Shown: one piece after another, positions 21,092-63,340 of the stretch
Layout of the letters: every line of letters starts with the position of its first letter
How positions within the stretch are numbered: the first letter of the stretch is position 1
Origin: Solirubrobacter pauli
GTDB taxonomy: Bacteria; Actinomycetota; Thermoleophilia; Solirubrobacterales; Solirubrobacteraceae
NCBI RefSeq assembly: GCF_003633755.1
Contig: NZ_RBIL01000001.1
Coordinates: 3,333,426-3,397,425 of the forward strand
DNA length: 64,000 nucleotides
Direction: 5' to 3'
Program-made: the position numbers and the translations under genes
Notes under the pieces: generated by a model
What the model saw: the letters and a program-made list of their open reading frames with translations, nothing else
Databases searched by the model: none
What the model was told of the DNA's origin: nothing

Positions 21092-21955
21092 ATGATCGAC
21101 GGCTTCGAACACCGCGACGTCAGCGTCGCCGACGACGTCACCCTCCACACCGCCATCGGCGGCACCGGCCCGGCGCTCGTGCTGCTGCACGGGTTCCCGC
21201 AGACGCACGCGATGTGGCGCAAGGTCGCGCCCGCGCTCGCGCAGACGCACACGGTGATCTGCCCGGACCTGCGCGGGTACGGACGCTCCAGCAAGCCCGC
21301 GGACGGCTACGCCAAGCGCACGATGGCGCAGGACGTCGTGAACCTCGCGCGGGCGCTCGGCCACGAGACGTTCGCGCTCGCCGGCCACGACCGGGGCGCG
21401 CTCGTCGCGTTCCGGGCCGGCCTCGACCATCCCGACCGGATCACGCGCCTGGCGATCCTCGACGTGCTGCCGACGCTCGACATGTGGGAGGTCCTGCACG
21501 GCGAGACCGCGGCGGTCGCGTTCCACCTGTACCTGATGGCGCAGCCGCCCGGCCTGCCGGAGCAGCTGATCGCGGGCGCGCCGGACGCCTTCTTCGGCCA
21601 CTTCCTCGACGCGTGGGGCGCGGCGCCGCAGCCGGCCGCGATCCGCGCGCACTACCTCGAGGCCAGCCGCGACGCGATCCCGTCGATCGTCGCCGACTAC
21701 CGCGCCTCGGCCACGATCGACGTCGAGCACGACCGGCAGGACCGCGCGCAGGGCACGCGGCTCACGATGCCGGTCACCGTCCTGCAGCAGGACTGGGGCG
21801 CCGCGCTCGGCTACGACGCCCGCGCGCTGTGGAGCGCGTGGGCCGAGGACCTCGACCACCGGACCGTCAGCAGCGGCCACTTCATGGCCGAGGACGACCC
21901 CGACACGGTCATCGAGGCCCTGCGCACGCTCATGGCGACGACGTCGACAGCGTGA
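21092..21955 (+). CDS. Alpha/beta hydrolase, haloacetate dehalogenase/epoxide hydrolase-like
   Basis: A 287-residue alpha/beta hydrolase. LVLLHGFPQTHAMW provides the oxyanion-hole HG and PDLRGYGRSSKP is typical of the dehalogenase branch. The nucleophile position carries Asp (D100 in AGHDRGALVAFR) rather than Ser, as in fluoroacetate/haloacetate dehalogenases and epoxide hydrolases. The catalytic His is in SSGHFMAED near residue 265. It is predicted to hydrolyse a carbon-halogen bond or an epoxide in the cytosol. ATG 21092 opens MIDGFEHRDVSVADDV. It is divergent from the SARP-like regulator, which probably controls it, and overlaps the facing secreted hydrolase gene by 26 bases. Confidence 0.9.
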   Translation: MIDGFEHRDVSVADDVTLHTAIGGTGPALVLLHGFPQTHAMWRKVAPALAQTHTVICPDLRGYGRSSKPADGYAKRTMAQDVVNLARALGHETFALAGHDRGALVAFRAGLDHPDRITRLAILDVLPTLDMWEVLHGETAAVAFHLYLMAQPPGLPEQLIAGAPDAFFGHFLDAWGAAPQPAAIRAHYLEASRDAIPSIVADYRASATIDVEHDRQDRAQGTRLTMPVTVLQQDWGAALGYDARALWSAWAEDLDHRTVSSGHFMAEDDPDTVIEALRTLMATTSTA

Positions 21956-23645
21956 ACGTGAGCGTCTTCGCGTAGGCGCCGGTCCGCAGTGGCTGGGTGC
22001 GTCCGATCGGCTGCCGGAAGTCGATCGTGGCCACGGCGTGGCTGACCGGACCGGCGTAGCTGAGCACCGGGCCGAGCGGCCCGAAGGCCGCGCCGTTCGC
22101 GCGGACCTGGAGCGGCTGGTCGAGCACGTAGCTGCCGTTGACCAGCCGGCCCGGGGCCACGACGCTCGGGTCGCTGATCGAGAGCAGCGCGCTGGACGTC
22201 GTGATGACGGTCGCCGTGGTGCTCGCGTCGTAGCTGCCGTCCACGCCGGGCACGAAGGTCCCGAACGAGGCCGGCGCGCCAAGCGTGAGCGCGAGCGTCG
22301 CGGGCACCGTGCCCTGGACGGACACGCCCGCGGCGCGTGCCAGCCGGCTGCCGAAGAACGCGACCGCCAGCTGGGCCATCTGCGTCTTGACCGTGTCGGT
22401 GTCCAACCCCGTCCTCGGCACGTTGGCGGGGGTCGGGGTGAAGCCGCCGGTCACGTCGCGGGTGAGCTGCTCGAGGCCGGCGAAGCTCGCGAACGGGCAG
22501 TAGTCGATGCCCAGGCCCGAGTTGGGGCTGCTGGCGATCCGGTCGAACGTGTGCTTGTCGAGCACCGCGTTCGCGTCCGCGGCCGCGATCAGCCCGGCGG
22601 CGCGCATCTCGGCGCAGTAGTTCGAGTCGAAGCTGCGATGGACGCCGTTGGTCAGCGACACGAGCTGCTTGTCGGGGTTCGCGCGCATCTCGAGCATCGC
22701 GCGCTCGCTCACCGACGGCGGCGACATCGCGTCGCCGGAGGCGGAGACCAGCAGCGTCGGCACGCGGACGCCCAGGTAGTCGACGCCGAGCGAGATCGGC
22801 TGTTGGCCGATCGCCATCCCCATCACGGCCACGACGCGCGGGTCGGCCGACAGCGGCCAGCAGCGCGCCGGGTCCCCGGAGCACGGGACGCCGGGCAGTG
22901 GGGCGGCGCTGCCGCCGGCGGTCGCGAGCGCCGTCAGCGTGCCGCGCGAGTGCCCGAGCAGGCCGACCTGCGCCGCGTCCACGCGCGTCCCGAACCATCC
23001 GCCGACGGCGTCCAGGACCTTCGAGACGTCCCGCGTGCGGTCGGCCATGCTGAACGGGACGTTGGTGCGCGAGCACGGGCCGGCGCGGCCGTCGTTGCAC
23101 GGCACCCGCACCGCGCCCGGCAGGGCGTTGAGGGCGTCGATCCGCGTGTCGTCCTGGGTGTTGCCCGTGTGGGCCGGGGCGGCGACGACGAACCCGCCGG
23201 CCGCGATCCGCTCCAGCGTCGGGGCGTAGTCGATGGGGTCGTTGGTGTTGCCGTGCGAGAAGACGATCACTCCGAATGGCTTGCCGTCCGGGGCGATCGC
23301 CGCGTCCTCGCGCGCGCTCTCGGCGTCGACCGTCCACGCCAGCGGCGTGTAGGGCGCGGGGACGGCGACGCCGTGCACCACGGACCGGTACACGGTCTTG
23401 GGACGCGCCGCGACCGTCGCCGGGTCGGCGGGGTACCAGAGGTGCACGTCGACCTGCCGGACCGTGTCGGTGGTCGCCGAGTCCGGCACGACGATCCGCT
23501 GCACGTCGTGGCCGACCGGATGCTCGGCGGCCCCCACCGGCGCCGCGCCGGCGCCCAGGCCTCCCAGCAAGACCGTCACGGTGGACCCCACCAGGCGCGT
23601 ACGCGTGGTGTTCCGGCAGCCGACTCGCAGCGTCATGGCCGTCAC
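21930..23645 (-). CDS. Secreted alpha/beta hydrolase with C-terminal surface-type module
   Basis: A 571-residue exported hydrolase. Residues about 1-40 are a signal peptide (basic N-terminus, hydrophobic core, GAAEHP). The catalytic domain resembles platelet-activating-factor acetylhydrolase/dienelactone-type enzymes: GVIVFSHGNTND, the nucleophile elbow LLGHSRGTL, and a VHRSFDSNYC region near the His. Four to six cysteines (VPCNDGRAGPC, VPCSGDPARC) suggest disulfides, fitting secretion. Residues about 441-571 form a separate beta-rich module that also ends the GH95 protein at 63340; both finish in TGAY-x-KTLTFTLST. The substrate is unknown. The preceding gene on this strand, MMPL, is separated by a strong hairpin. 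Confidence 0.85.
   Translation of the reverse strand: MTAMTLRVGCRNTTRTRLVGSTVTVLLGGLGAGAAPVGAAEHPVGHDVQRIVVPDSATTDTVRQVDVHLWYPADPATVAARPKTVYRSVVHGVAVPAPYTPLAWTVDAESAREDAAIAPDGKPFGVIVFSHGNTNDPIDYAPTLERIAAGGFVVAAPAHTGNTQDDTRIDALNALPGAVRVPCNDGRAGPCSRTNVPFSMADRTRDVSKVLDAVGGWFGTRVDAAQVGLLGHSRGTLTALATAGGSAAPLPGVPCSGDPARCWPLSADPRVVAVMGMAIGQQPISLGVDYLGVRVPTLLVSASGDAMSPPSVSERAMLEMRANPDKQLVSLTNGVHRSFDSNYCAEMRAAGLIAAADANAVLDKHTFDRIASSPNSGLGIDYCPFASFAGLEQLTRDVTGGFTPTPANVPRTGLDTDTVKTQMAQLAVAFFGSRLARAAGVSVQGTVPATLALTLGAPASFGTFVPGVDGSYDASTTATVITTSSALLSISDPSVVAPGRLVNGSYVLDQPLQVRANGAAFGPLGPVLSYAGPVSHAVATIDFRQPIGRTQPLRTGAYAKTLTFTLSTSSP
21933..22326 (-). other. C-terminal module shared with the GH95 protein (copy 1)
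   Basis: This segment encodes about 131 residues. It runs from VSVQGTVPATLALTL through GSYVL-x-Q-x-LQVRA and LSYAGP to the terminus TGAYAKTLTFTLSTSSP. Copy 2 at 62921-63337 keeps the same order of conserved blocks: LGTF-x-PGV, APG-x-LV-x-GSYVL, QPI, and KTLTFTLST plus two hydroxy residues and Pro. It is beta-rich by appearance and always at the extreme C-terminus, which suggests a cell-surface attachment or stability module. Confidence 0.8.
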
Positions 23646-59848: not shown

Positions 59849-62800
59849 ATGTCGGGGAGGAGAGCCCCACGCCGCGCCGCGGCGTTGCTGGTCGCTGGAT
59901 TGACAGGGATGGTCATCGCGCCGCCGAGCGTCTCGGCCGCGCCGAGCACCGCATGGGTGGACAACGCCTTCCGCGTGGACACGCCGAACGTCGTGCGCCG
60001 CGCGAACATCGTCCTCGGATCACCGCCGCTGCAGGCGAACCAGCTGATGCCGCTGGGCAACGGCACGTTCGGCGCCGCCGTCTGGGGCGCGGGCGGCTTC
60101 ACCGCCCAGTTGAACCGGGGCGACACCTGGCCGACGCGCAAGTCGCCCGGCCAGGTCACGATCCCCGGCCTCGCGCCGCTGACGAACGCCGCCGACTACC
60201 GCGGCAGCGTCGACCTGTACGACGCCACCTTCCGCCAGTCGGGCGGCGGCATGACCGCCACCACCTACGTCCGCGCGGACAAGGACCAGCTCGTGGTCGA
60301 CGTCACCGGCGCGGACCCCAACTCCACGCAGACCGCGCGGATCAACCTGCAGAGCGGCCGCAACCCCACCGCGGGCGCGAGCGACGGCATCGCCCGGCTC
60401 GCGGAGACGTGGGTGGACACCGGCTCGTTCACCGGCGGCACCGGCAAGACCTTCGGCTCGCTCGCGGCGGTCACCGCTGGCGGGCGCGAGGTCAGCGCCC
60501 GCGTGGTCGACGCGCGCACGGTCGAGGTGAGCTTCAAGCCCAACGCCGACGGCACGTTCCGCGTGCTGATCGGCTCGCCGAGCTACAACGGCGGCGACGC
60601 GCAGGCCGCGGCCGCCGGCGTGCTCGGCTCCGACACGACCGGCAACCTGCGCACCGCGCACCTCGCGTGGTGGCAGCAGTACTGGAACAAGGTCGGGCTG
60701 ATCCGCCTGCAGTCCGCCGACGGCACCGCGGACTACATGGAGAACCTCCGCACGATCTTCCTGTACGTGCAGGGCGCCTCCGAGCGCGGTGAGTTCCCGA
60801 CCGGTCAGGCGGGCACCAACCCGCTGTTCAACTTCAGCCGCGACTCGCAGGGCTGGGGCGGTGGCCACTACTGGCACTGGAACATGCGCATGCACCTCGC
60901 GGCCAACATGGGCGCGGGCAACACCGACGCGAACCTCCCGCGCTACCGGCTCTACCGCGACAACCTCGAGAACATCCGCAAGTGGACGACGGAGCGCATG
61001 GGCGGCCGCCCGGGCATCTGCGTCCCGGAGACGATGCGCTTCGACGGCACCGGCTGGTACACGGGCACCGACGACGGCAACCCGAGCTGCATCGCGGCCG
61101 GCCCGCCGGAGTGGAACCGCCGCAACCTGACCACCGGCGCGAACGTCAGCCTGTCGATGTGGCGCCACTACCTGGCGACCGACGACCGCACGTTCCTCGA
61201 GCGCAACTACCCGTTCATGGCCGACGCGGCGCGCTTCCTGCTCGCCTACGCGGTCGAGGGCGCGGACGGCAAGCTGCACACCTCGCCGTCGAACGCGCAC
61301 GAGACGCAGTGGGACGTCAGCGACCCGATCACCGACCGGCTCGCGATGAAGACCCTGTTCCCGATCGTGGTCGAAGCGGCGACGCTGCTCGGCCAGGACG
61401 CGGCGCTCGTCACGCAGCTGCAGGCCGCGATCCCGAAGATCCTCGATCTGCCGACCGAGACGCGCAACGGCCAGACCGCGTTCGCCTACTCGGCGCAGCC
61501 GCTCGCCCAGCTGCGCAACGTCGAGAACCTGGACCTGGAGACGGTCTTCCCGTTCAACACGGTGACCGACCAAACGCCGGCGGAGTTCGAGCTGGCCAAG
61601 GCGAGCTACGCCACGCGCCGCTTCGTCAACGCCAACGACTGGAGCCTGGACGCGGTCGACGCCGCGCGGCTGCACAACGGGCCTGAGGTCGCCGCGCGCC
61701 TGCGCGCGACCACGAGCTCCTACCAGATCTTCTCCAACGGCCTGGCCAATCTCGGCCCGACCGGCGCGACCAACACCTACGACGAGCACGCGGGCGTGAC
61801 GGCGCTGGCGATCAACGAGGCGCTCGCGACCGACTTCGACGGGATCGTGCGCATCGCGCCCGCGGTGCCGCCGGGCTGGACCGCCGAAGGCACCGTGTTC
61901 CTGCAGCACCGCTCGAAGATCAGCGTCCAGGTGCAGGAGGGCGCGGTCACCACGGCGGCGCTCGTCAACGGCCCGGCCGCGCGCAGCATCCGGATCAAGA
62001 ACCCGTGGCCCGGCCAGGAGGCGCAGATCGTCTCCGGCTCGAGCCCCGGCACGGTCGTCGTGCCGGCGACCACCGCGGCGCTCATCACGCTCCCCGCGGC
62101 CGCCAACGGCACGTACCTGATCCAGCGCCCGAGCGCGCCGACCAGCGCGCTGCCGACGGCGGTCCTCACCGGCGCCGCGCCGACCGAGGCGCGCCACCTG
62201 GCGGGCTCGAACGCGCGGATCGGCATCGACGTCCCCGGCTACGAGCCGCCCGGCCCGTGCCCGACGCCGACGCAGACGCCGCTGTTCGCCTGGGACCCGT
62301 CCTCGGGGAACACCATCGACGACGCGTCCGGCTACGACCGTGACGGCGTCTGGGCCGGCGGCGCCGCCAGCTACCTCGCCACGGGCCCGACCGGCTCGAG
62401 CGCGAGCATCGACGGTCCGCGCTACCTGCGCACGAACGGTGTTGCCACGCTCGGCTACCTGCGCGAGGCCACCTGGGCGGCGGAGATCAAGATCAACGCG
62501 TCCAACTCGTACCGCCGGATCTGGGACTGGAAGACGCCCAGCGGCGGCGACAGCGTCGGCTTCCTGATCGACCTCACGCCCAGCGGCCAGGTGCGCATCA
62601 TCACCTCGGGCGTGGGCGTCACCACCAACGCCGTGCTGCCGACCGGGCGCTTCATCAACCTGGTCATCACCGCGTCGCGGTCGGGTGAGATCGACGTCTA
62701 CGTCGACGGCACCCGCGTCGGCGGCGGCTCGATCCCGAACCTGGCGATCGACGGCTGCGCGCCGGCGGAGCTGCGGATCGGCGCCGACCAGGGCGGCGGC

Positions 62801-63340
62801 CAGCGCATCAGCGCCGAGGTCGACCGCACGGCGATGTTCACCAAGGCGCTCGGCGCCGAGGACCGCGGGCGCTGGCAGGCGCTGGCGTTCACGGCCCCGG
62901 GTGAGTCGGTGACCGCGGAGACCGAGATCAGCGGCTCCGTGCCGCAGGTCCTGTCGCTCGCCTTCAACCAGGCGACCGCCAACCTCGGCACGTTCAAGCC
63001 CGGCGTCACCGCCGACTACACGGCGACGCTGGACGCCACCGTCACGAGCACCGCGCCGAACGCGGCGCTGACCGTGCACGACGCGTCCGCGACGGCACCC
63101 GGGCACCTCGTGCAGGGCAGCTACGTGCTCCCGCAGGCCTTGCAGGTCCGGGCGGGGGCCGGTGCGTTCGCGCCCGTGGGGGGCGCGAGCGCACCCACAC
63201 CGCTCGTCAGCTACACGGGCCCGAAGAGCCTCGACGCCGTCGCGATCGCGCTCAAGCAGCCGATCGCCGCGACGGACGGGCTGCACACGGGCGCGTACGG
63301 CAAGACGCTCACGTTCACGCTTTCGACGACGACACCGTAG
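59849..63340 (+). CDS. Secreted GH95-like alpha-L-fucosidase with LamG and C-terminal module
   Basis: A 1163-residue exported glycosidase. The signal peptide covers residues about 1-32 (RRAAALLVAGLTGMVIAPPSVSA). Residues about 50-800 resemble glycoside hydrolase family 95: MPLGNGTFGAAVWGAGG and AQLNRGDTW at the start, KLHTSPSNAHETQW with candidate catalytic acid E485, and a late NTYDEHAGVTALAINEAL and IAPAVPPGW. Residues about 806-1020 form a LamG/concanavalin-like sugar-binding domain. Residues about 1025-1163 are the module shared with the hydrolase at 21930. It would release L-fucose outside the cell for the adjacent importer. GH95 is judged by motif order, not by alignment; fine specificity is uncertain. 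Confidence 0.82.
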   Translation: MSGRRAPRRAAALLVAGLTGMVIAPPSVSAAPSTAWVDNAFRVDTPNVVRRANIVLGSPPLQANQLMPLGNGTFGAAVWGAGGFTAQLNRGDTWPTRKSPGQVTIPGLAPLTNAADYRGSVDLYDATFRQSGGGMTATTYVRADKDQLVVDVTGADPNSTQTARINLQSGRNPTAGASDGIARLAETWVDTGSFTGGTGKTFGSLAAVTAGGREVSARVVDARTVEVSFKPNADGTFRVLIGSPSYNGGDAQAAAAGVLGSDTTGNLRTAHLAWWQQYWNKVGLIRLQSADGTADYMENLRTIFLYVQGASERGEFPTGQAGTNPLFNFSRDSQGWGGGHYWHWNMRMHLAANMGAGNTDANLPRYRLYRDNLENIRKWTTERMGGRPGICVPETMRFDGTGWYTGTDDGNPSCIAAGPPEWNRRNLTTGANVSLSMWRHYLATDDRTFLERNYPFMADAARFLLAYAVEGADGKLHTSPSNAHETQWDVSDPITDRLAMKTLFPIVVEAATLLGQDAALVTQLQAAIPKILDLPTETRNGQTAFAYSAQPLAQLRNVENLDLETVFPFNTVTDQTPAEFELAKASYATRRFVNANDWSLDAVDAARLHNGPEVAARLRATTSSYQIFSNGLANLGPTGATNTYDEHAGVTALAINEALATDFDGIVRIAPAVPPGWTAEGTVFLQHRSKISVQVQEGAVTTAALVNGPAARSIRIKNPWPGQEAQIVSGSSPGTVVVPATTAALITLPAAANGTYLIQRPSAPTSALPTAVLTGAAPTEARHLAGSNARIGIDVPGYEPPGPCPTPTQTPLFAWDPSSGNTIDDASGYDRDGVWAGGAASYLATGPTGSSASIDGPRYLRTNGVATLGYLREATWAAEIKINASNSYRRIWDWKTPSGGDSVGFLIDLTPSGQVRIITSGVGVTTNAVLPTGRFINLVITASRSGEIDVYVDGTRVGGGSIPNLAIDGCAPAELRIGADQGGGQRISAEVDRTAMFTKALGAEDRGRWQALAFTAPGESVTAETEISGSVPQVLSLAFNQATANLGTFKPGVTADYTATLDATVTSTAPNAALTVHDASATAPGHLVQGSYVLPQALQVRAGAGAFAPVGGASAPTPLVSYTGPKSLDAVAIALKQPIAATDGLHTGAYGKTLTFTLSTTTP
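62921..63337 (+). other. C-terminal module shared with the secreted hydrolase (copy 2)
   Basis: This segment encodes about 139 residues after the LamG domain. It begins TEISGSVPQVLSLAF, and carries LGTFKPGV, APGHLVQGSYVLPQALQVRA, LVSYTGP and the terminus TGAYGKTLTFTLSTTTP. Against copy 1 it has a short insertion before LVSYTGP. The invariant aromatic/Thr-rich last strand, KTLTFTLST, followed by hydroxy residues and Pro, is the clearest marker. Confidence 0.8.

Follow-up and report, generated by a model that had tools for sequence, protein, structure and literature searches.

The question raised by this locus, a window of 64,000 nucleotides from Solirubrobacter pauli (NCBI RefSeq assembly GCF_003633755.1, contig NZ_RBIL01000001.1, positions 3,333,426 to 3,397,425), is why two unrelated secreted enzymes should end in the same C-terminal module. 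A preliminary description of the window, made from the sequence alone, had proposed a lineage-specific domain for cell-surface anchoring or secretion, possibly WxL-like in role. Based on the results below, the module probably serves as a C-terminal domain for docking at the cell surface, a divergent WxL counterpart lacking the tryptophans and bound by a partner resembling the WxL-interacting protein (WxLIP) and PapD.

Both copies of the module were found where they had first been placed. The first is the putative WxL-like docking module (62921..63337, + strand) of a secreted GH95-like glycosidase of 1163 amino acids (59849..63340, + strand) that consists of a signal peptide, a GH95 catalytic domain, a LamG domain, and the module, the final codon of which encodes an invariant proline directly before the stop codon (63338-63340). 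The second is the putative docking module (21933 to about 22325, - strand; stop codon 21930-21932) of a secreted PAF-AH/PETase-like alpha/beta hydrolase of up to 571 amino acids (21930..23645, - strand). As had been claimed, the catalytic parts upstream are unrelated. The similarity of the two modules is well above chance (53% identity, E 5e-29 to each other). The shared sequence blocks quoted for the pair are all present, except that the first block of the hydrolase reads SFGTFVPGV instead of LGTFxPGV. The exact ending at the stop codon, the module copy of the gene that follows the glycosidase, and the copy number across the genome had been overlooked; the module is common to secreted proteins, as described, but two enzymes proved far too few.

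When the 7.14 Mb genome was searched using the window copy as query, 107 copies of the module were identified. A stop codon directly follows the module in every copy, with no residue beyond the terminal ...TLSTTxP, and P(-1), Y(-14), and G(-16) are invariant (107/107). Two further positions are nearly so (T(-7), 106/107; L(-6), 105/107), while position -2 is free to vary. As the median pairwise identity amongst the copies is only 54%, the invariant end is not due to recent duplication. The copies fall into a long form of ~135 residues and a short form of ~116 residues that is missing one hairpin. A signal peptide was recognised in 102 of the 107 module proteins using a simple test of the n-region and h-region, and two of the remaining five are truncated by contig ends. 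The secreted nature of nearly all carriers and the extreme C-terminal position, both first noted from two proteins, extend to the copies across the genome, with the position also shared by 23 copies from other Solirubrobacter species and no copy located internally.

The proteins to which the module is attached are diverse. Single-linkage clustering of 104 cargo regions resulted in 43 unrelated clusters, with 30 singletons. Cargo assigned to Pfam families included zinc carboxypeptidases M14, X-Pro peptidases S15, amidases, other peptidases (M1, M28, M64, and S8), GH10, GH67, GH95, 3-keto-disaccharide hydrolases, sugar dehydrogenases, alkaline phosphatase, metallophosphatases, GDPD, tannase-like DUF6351, and ThuA, often accompanied by PKD, CBM6, or LamG domains.

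Six other Solirubrobacter genomes possessed 69, 107, 107, 146, 149, and at least 150 copies of the module, compared to 0–3 copies in each of the 139 remaining family genomes. No module was found outside of the family among 396 genomes from across the phylum, aside from one fragment in G048 that contained six internal stop codons and was dismissed as a chance match. The 23 module genes read from other Solirubrobacter species all carry the module C-terminally and end in ...P, as do module genes outside of the genus, with exceptions only for three weak, tryptophan-containing relatives (L118, L135, L146).

The module had been described as lacking a name, and no match was found in Pfam, NCBIfam, or PDB sequences, nor did the papers covered by a literature search describe it or any display system in Solirubrobacter. 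An AlphaFold2 model built with 61 own-genome copies (predicted local distance difference test [pLDDT], 96.3) is an all-beta sandwich, beta-rich as first proposed, with the C-terminal TLTFTLS as its last strand. The nearest folds (Foldseek, VIA-align) were chaperone-usher pilin domains (CsuA/B, FimA, and the CfaE pilin domain) and the TasA-like TLP-1, all borderline (E 6e-3, Z about 9). TLP-1a/b (Z 8.6–8.7 over 137 residues) were level with the pilins and near background level. Sortase anchoring was set aside, as every copy ends in the module without an LPXTG-hydrophobic-basic tail, and an autotransporter or type IX secretion system (T9SS) identity was set aside for want of similarity.

Likely partners of the module were newly identified in this analysis. 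A run of four genes in the S. pauli genome, B-D1-C-D2, contains a divergent stand-alone copy of the module, C (C2:413833-414339), that consists of a signal peptide and the module only. The proteins D1 and D2 are secreted and ~260 amino acids in length, and B is a secreted protein of ~450 amino acids with a WACHGP motif. Synteny of the run extends to other species of Solirubrobacter (D2 is present in S. phytolaccae, S. taibaiensis, S. deserti, S. soli, and Candidatus S. pratensis), and in other genera most of the run adjoins a large module-bearing gene (G404 twice, G527, G121, G100, G499, G502). The small proteins of these genera have identities as low as 22%, yet all of them end in P, and a profile comparison without shared members matched the module to the small proteins at 98.9–99.3%, with reversed controls nil. 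Amongst 146 genomes of the family, D proteins occurred in 14 of 15 genomes with the module and in 4 of 131 without it (Fisher p 4e-15); outside of the genus the corresponding counts were 7 of 8 and 4 of 131 (p 1.5e-8). Two copies of protein B were scanned and matched no Pfam family at cut-off. In several genera, conserved proteins of this type, which start with WACHGPxGQALG, accompany the genes for D and the small module protein (including L158:6504-7954, L150:5733-7049, and L151:9516-10952).

The D proteins point to the WxL systems. The AlphaFold2 model of D2 (27 sequences; pLDDT 93.7) predicts two immunoglobulin (Ig)-like domains in the arrangement of WxLIP, and its best structural match was the Enterococcus faecium WxLIP bound to a long WxL protein (9i25_C; Z 15.7, 215/228 residues, root-mean-square deviation 4.9), followed by WxLIP alone (9i1y; Z 15.5) and PapD-family chaperones (Z 11–14). 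In a profile comparison (hhalign), D matched Thermoleophilia proteins of the Pfam family WxLIP_PGBD at 98.7% (E 2e-16, 225 columns), with reversed D nil. Judged by these profiles, D is homologous to WxLIP (DUF916-DUF3324), with which it shares the two-Ig fold over nearly the full length, although D scores below the Pfam cut-offs for WxLIP (PF06030 and PF11797) and is apparently without a transmembrane helix.

A membrane-anchored relative was found next to a module gene. Four bases past the stop codon of an own-genome metallophosphatase that carries the module, a WxLIP-like gene (C1:208577-209458) encodes a protein with a signal peptide, a WxLIP-like region, a C-terminal membrane helix (by inspection), and a basic tail. 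S. soli and S. taibaiensis have this gene pair too, and in Ca. S. pratensis and G404, a genome from another genus, the two genes are spaced a little further apart. Like D, its anchored relatives have significant similarity to WxLIP at the profile level: the anchored protein of Ca. S. pratensis passes Pfam WxLIP_PGBD (PF06030; 30.3 bits, cut-off 27.3), and that of S. pauli matches it at E 0.0027, below the cut-off. A profile of the anchored proteins searched within the genus recovered mostly D proteins, and a PDB search with the anchored protein and the small tryptophan-containing proteins returned chance matches only. In some Thermoleophilia, the open reading frame of the anchored WxLIP-like protein runs on into a helix-hairpin-helix segment, confirmed with Pfam for L149:10018-11652 and assigned by eye for L207:5193-6677 and L208:3422-4933. 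In S. phytolaccae, a small secreted protein and a membrane-anchored Ig protein form a pair adjoining a module gene (L258:4564-6205), possibly a second WxL-like set.

The gene arrangement corresponds to the published WxL clusters of Bacillota (PMC10599100, PMC9772566), which consist of a small WxL protein, a large protein with a C-terminal WxL domain, and WxLIP according to PMC10599100: the small form is accompanied by D in S. pauli, the large form adjoins the run in other genera, and a WxLIP-like gene is located beside a large form. The two W-x-L motifs themselves are not present in the 107 module copies, but vestiges of both can be traced, with ATLSVxD in place of WTLSIxD and TFTLS in place of TWTLS. 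The column of the first tryptophan holds A in 94 of 107 copies and never W, with L conserved in all 107; the column of the second holds F (88), L (10), or Y (5), again never W, with the following L in 105. In other Thermoleophilia, one or two small secreted proteins of an SWTLSxxD type, one of which has both W-x-L motifs, precede the anchored partner. The module aligns with these small proteins over the full length (98.6%, E 1e-15), with ATLSVxD paired with WTLSIxD. Of 299 Thermoleophilia genomes, 26 encode canonical Pfam WxL proteins and 30 encode WxLIP; at the thresholds used, S. pauli had neither. A terminal P was seen in 25 of the 27 Thermoleophilia WxL proteins read, as part of a final GP in 24, and Y is at -13 in 24 of 25. 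Pfam-recognisable WxL and WxLIP genes are adjacent in several of these genomes (G381, G474, G558, G356, G743, and others; loci L267-L288).

Several results weigh against a WxL-like docking domain. None of 61 module copies matched Pfam WxL (PF13731) at E 1, and the family had no match in the S. pauli genome (control positive in Lactococcus lactis). The module alone did not match WxL profiles significantly (hhalign, 1–7%); combined with its small tryptophan-containing relatives it reached 91–94% against one WxL set, a score to which signal peptides add, and 7–24% against a narrower set. The fold matches of the module were borderline, and no WxL chain was among the best 50 structures listed for it, which excludes nothing. 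Further, D1 and D2 are without a membrane anchor (no transmembrane helix by inspection), the co-occurrence counts of D and module are inflated by shared ancestry, and a single WxLIP-like gene and three to four D genes stand against about 100 clients, such that the partners would have to be highly expressed. The direct profile comparison of module and WxL was not significant (at most 6.7%). A role like that of WxL is well supported, whereas the module as a true WxL domain is unproven. Accordingly, the WxL-like role first suggested gains from partner genes homologous to WxLIP and does not extend to membership in the WxL sequence family. The broader suggestion of a lineage-specific C-terminal domain for anchoring or secretion fared well, as neither a defined domain of known function nor internal copies scattered in non-secreted proteins were found, with anchoring itself the inferred part.

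In the proposed mechanism, the enzymes would be exported via their own signal peptides, and the C-terminal beta-sandwich, with its exposed last strand and invariant -TxP carboxyl end, would be captured by a two-Ig partner, either D, which is soluble, or the WxLIP-like protein anchored in the membrane. Capture would probably occur through strand complementation and keep the enzyme at the envelope, with the small protein C in the role of the 'small WxL'. Strand complementation is suggested by the precedents of WxLIP and PapD, while the invariant terminal proline suggests that the free carboxyl end is recognised. In a published AlphaFold model, a WxLIP strand completes the WxL sandwich (PMC10599100). 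It is tentatively proposed that this amounts to exoenzyme display on a genome-wide scale, in which at least 100 exoenzymes share one C-terminal socket and soluble WxLIP/PapD-like proteins capture them, through strand complementation and the free -TxP end, in a non-covalent, sortase-independent surface array.

The main rival to surface docking is a fibre, in which the module would be a pilin- or TasA-like subunit, the small protein would polymerise by donor-strand exchange with D as the chaperone, and the enzymes would cap or decorate the fibre as adhesins do. The nearest folds of the module (CsuA/B, FimA, the CfaE pilin domain, and the TasA-like TLP-1) speak for such a system, the final strand lies at the chain end in both, and two-domain tip adhesins share the layout of cargo followed by an extreme C-terminal pilin domain. 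D also resembles PapD-family chaperones (Z 13–14), but WxLIP is the better fit, and neither an usher (PF00577; control positive in E. coli) nor a TasA/M73 family member (Peptidase_M73, PF12389; control positive in B. subtilis) was found in the S. pauli genome. With enzymes as cargo, over 100 'caps' for two small subunits, and no N-terminal donor strand identified in the small protein, a fibre is unlikely.

Two other explanations separate the module from surface retention by D. PapD-type chaperones recognise the terminal carboxylate together with the strand that is made last, and the soluble, chaperone-like D proteins could read the module as a mere folding or export tag during secretion, after which the enzymes would be freed into the medium. 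This is improbable, given that the module persists as a folded domain of 115–135 residues with no cleavage site seen and that the gene for a membrane-anchored WxLIP-like protein forms a pair with one that carries the module. Alternatively, the module may itself attach to peptidoglycan or glycan of the envelope, or to a substrate outside the cell, with D unrelated to its function. On hydrolases, modules with a beta-sandwich fold frequently bind carbohydrates. WxL domains have also been reported to bind peptidoglycan (PMC10599100). The strict position at the last residue and the co-occurrence with D instead indicate a partner protein, and the substrates of the cargo (peptidases, amidases, phosphatases, and esterases) are too diverse for a single substrate-binding module, making binding by the module alone very unlikely.

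Set against the WxL domain of Bacillota, the putative docking module is similar in its extreme C-terminal beta-sandwich on secreted proteins, the residual motifs, the small and large forms with WxLIP homologues encoded alongside, and the terminal proline seen in Thermoleophilia WxL proteins. It differs in length (115–135 versus 160–190 residues), in the replacement of both tryptophans, in the lack of a Pfam WxL match, in a partner D apparently without a membrane helix, and in cargo that is mostly enzymes and not host adhesins, at about 100 copies per genome versus few. The T9SS C-terminal domains of Bacteroidota are likewise one C-terminal domain common to many unrelated secreted enzymes. They belong to a different phylum, have no sequence similarity to the module beyond one weak, chance-level NCBIfam match, and are served by an outer-membrane machine and not a WxLIP-type partner. 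If true, the exoenzyme array would have a scale like that of T9SS or the cellulosome and would be previously undescribed in Actinomycetota. Docking through the module would explain what the tails of about a hundred exoenzymes per genome do in a common soil genus, and would carry the WxL/WxLIP principle over from host adhesion in Bacillota to the display of enzymes in Actinomycetota. The shared partner fold connects WxL systems with strand complementation of the chaperone-usher type. With a profile of the module, about 800 proteins across seven genomes could be annotated at once, and the module is a possible simple C-terminal tag for display on Solirubrobacter cells.

Two minor observations concern the arrangement of the carriers. 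Contigs C2 (right end, L027) and C3 (left end, L040) terminate within near-identical module-bearing genes, which suggests an assembly break at paralogues. At the edge of the window, the GH95-like gene is followed by the start of a gene (L023; 63353..64000, + strand; open reading frame of 1809 amino acids) for a secreted glucose/sorbosone-dehydrogenase-like protein with the module at its own C-terminus, just beyond the window (contig C1:3401788-3402192), such that two module carriers are directly adjacent.
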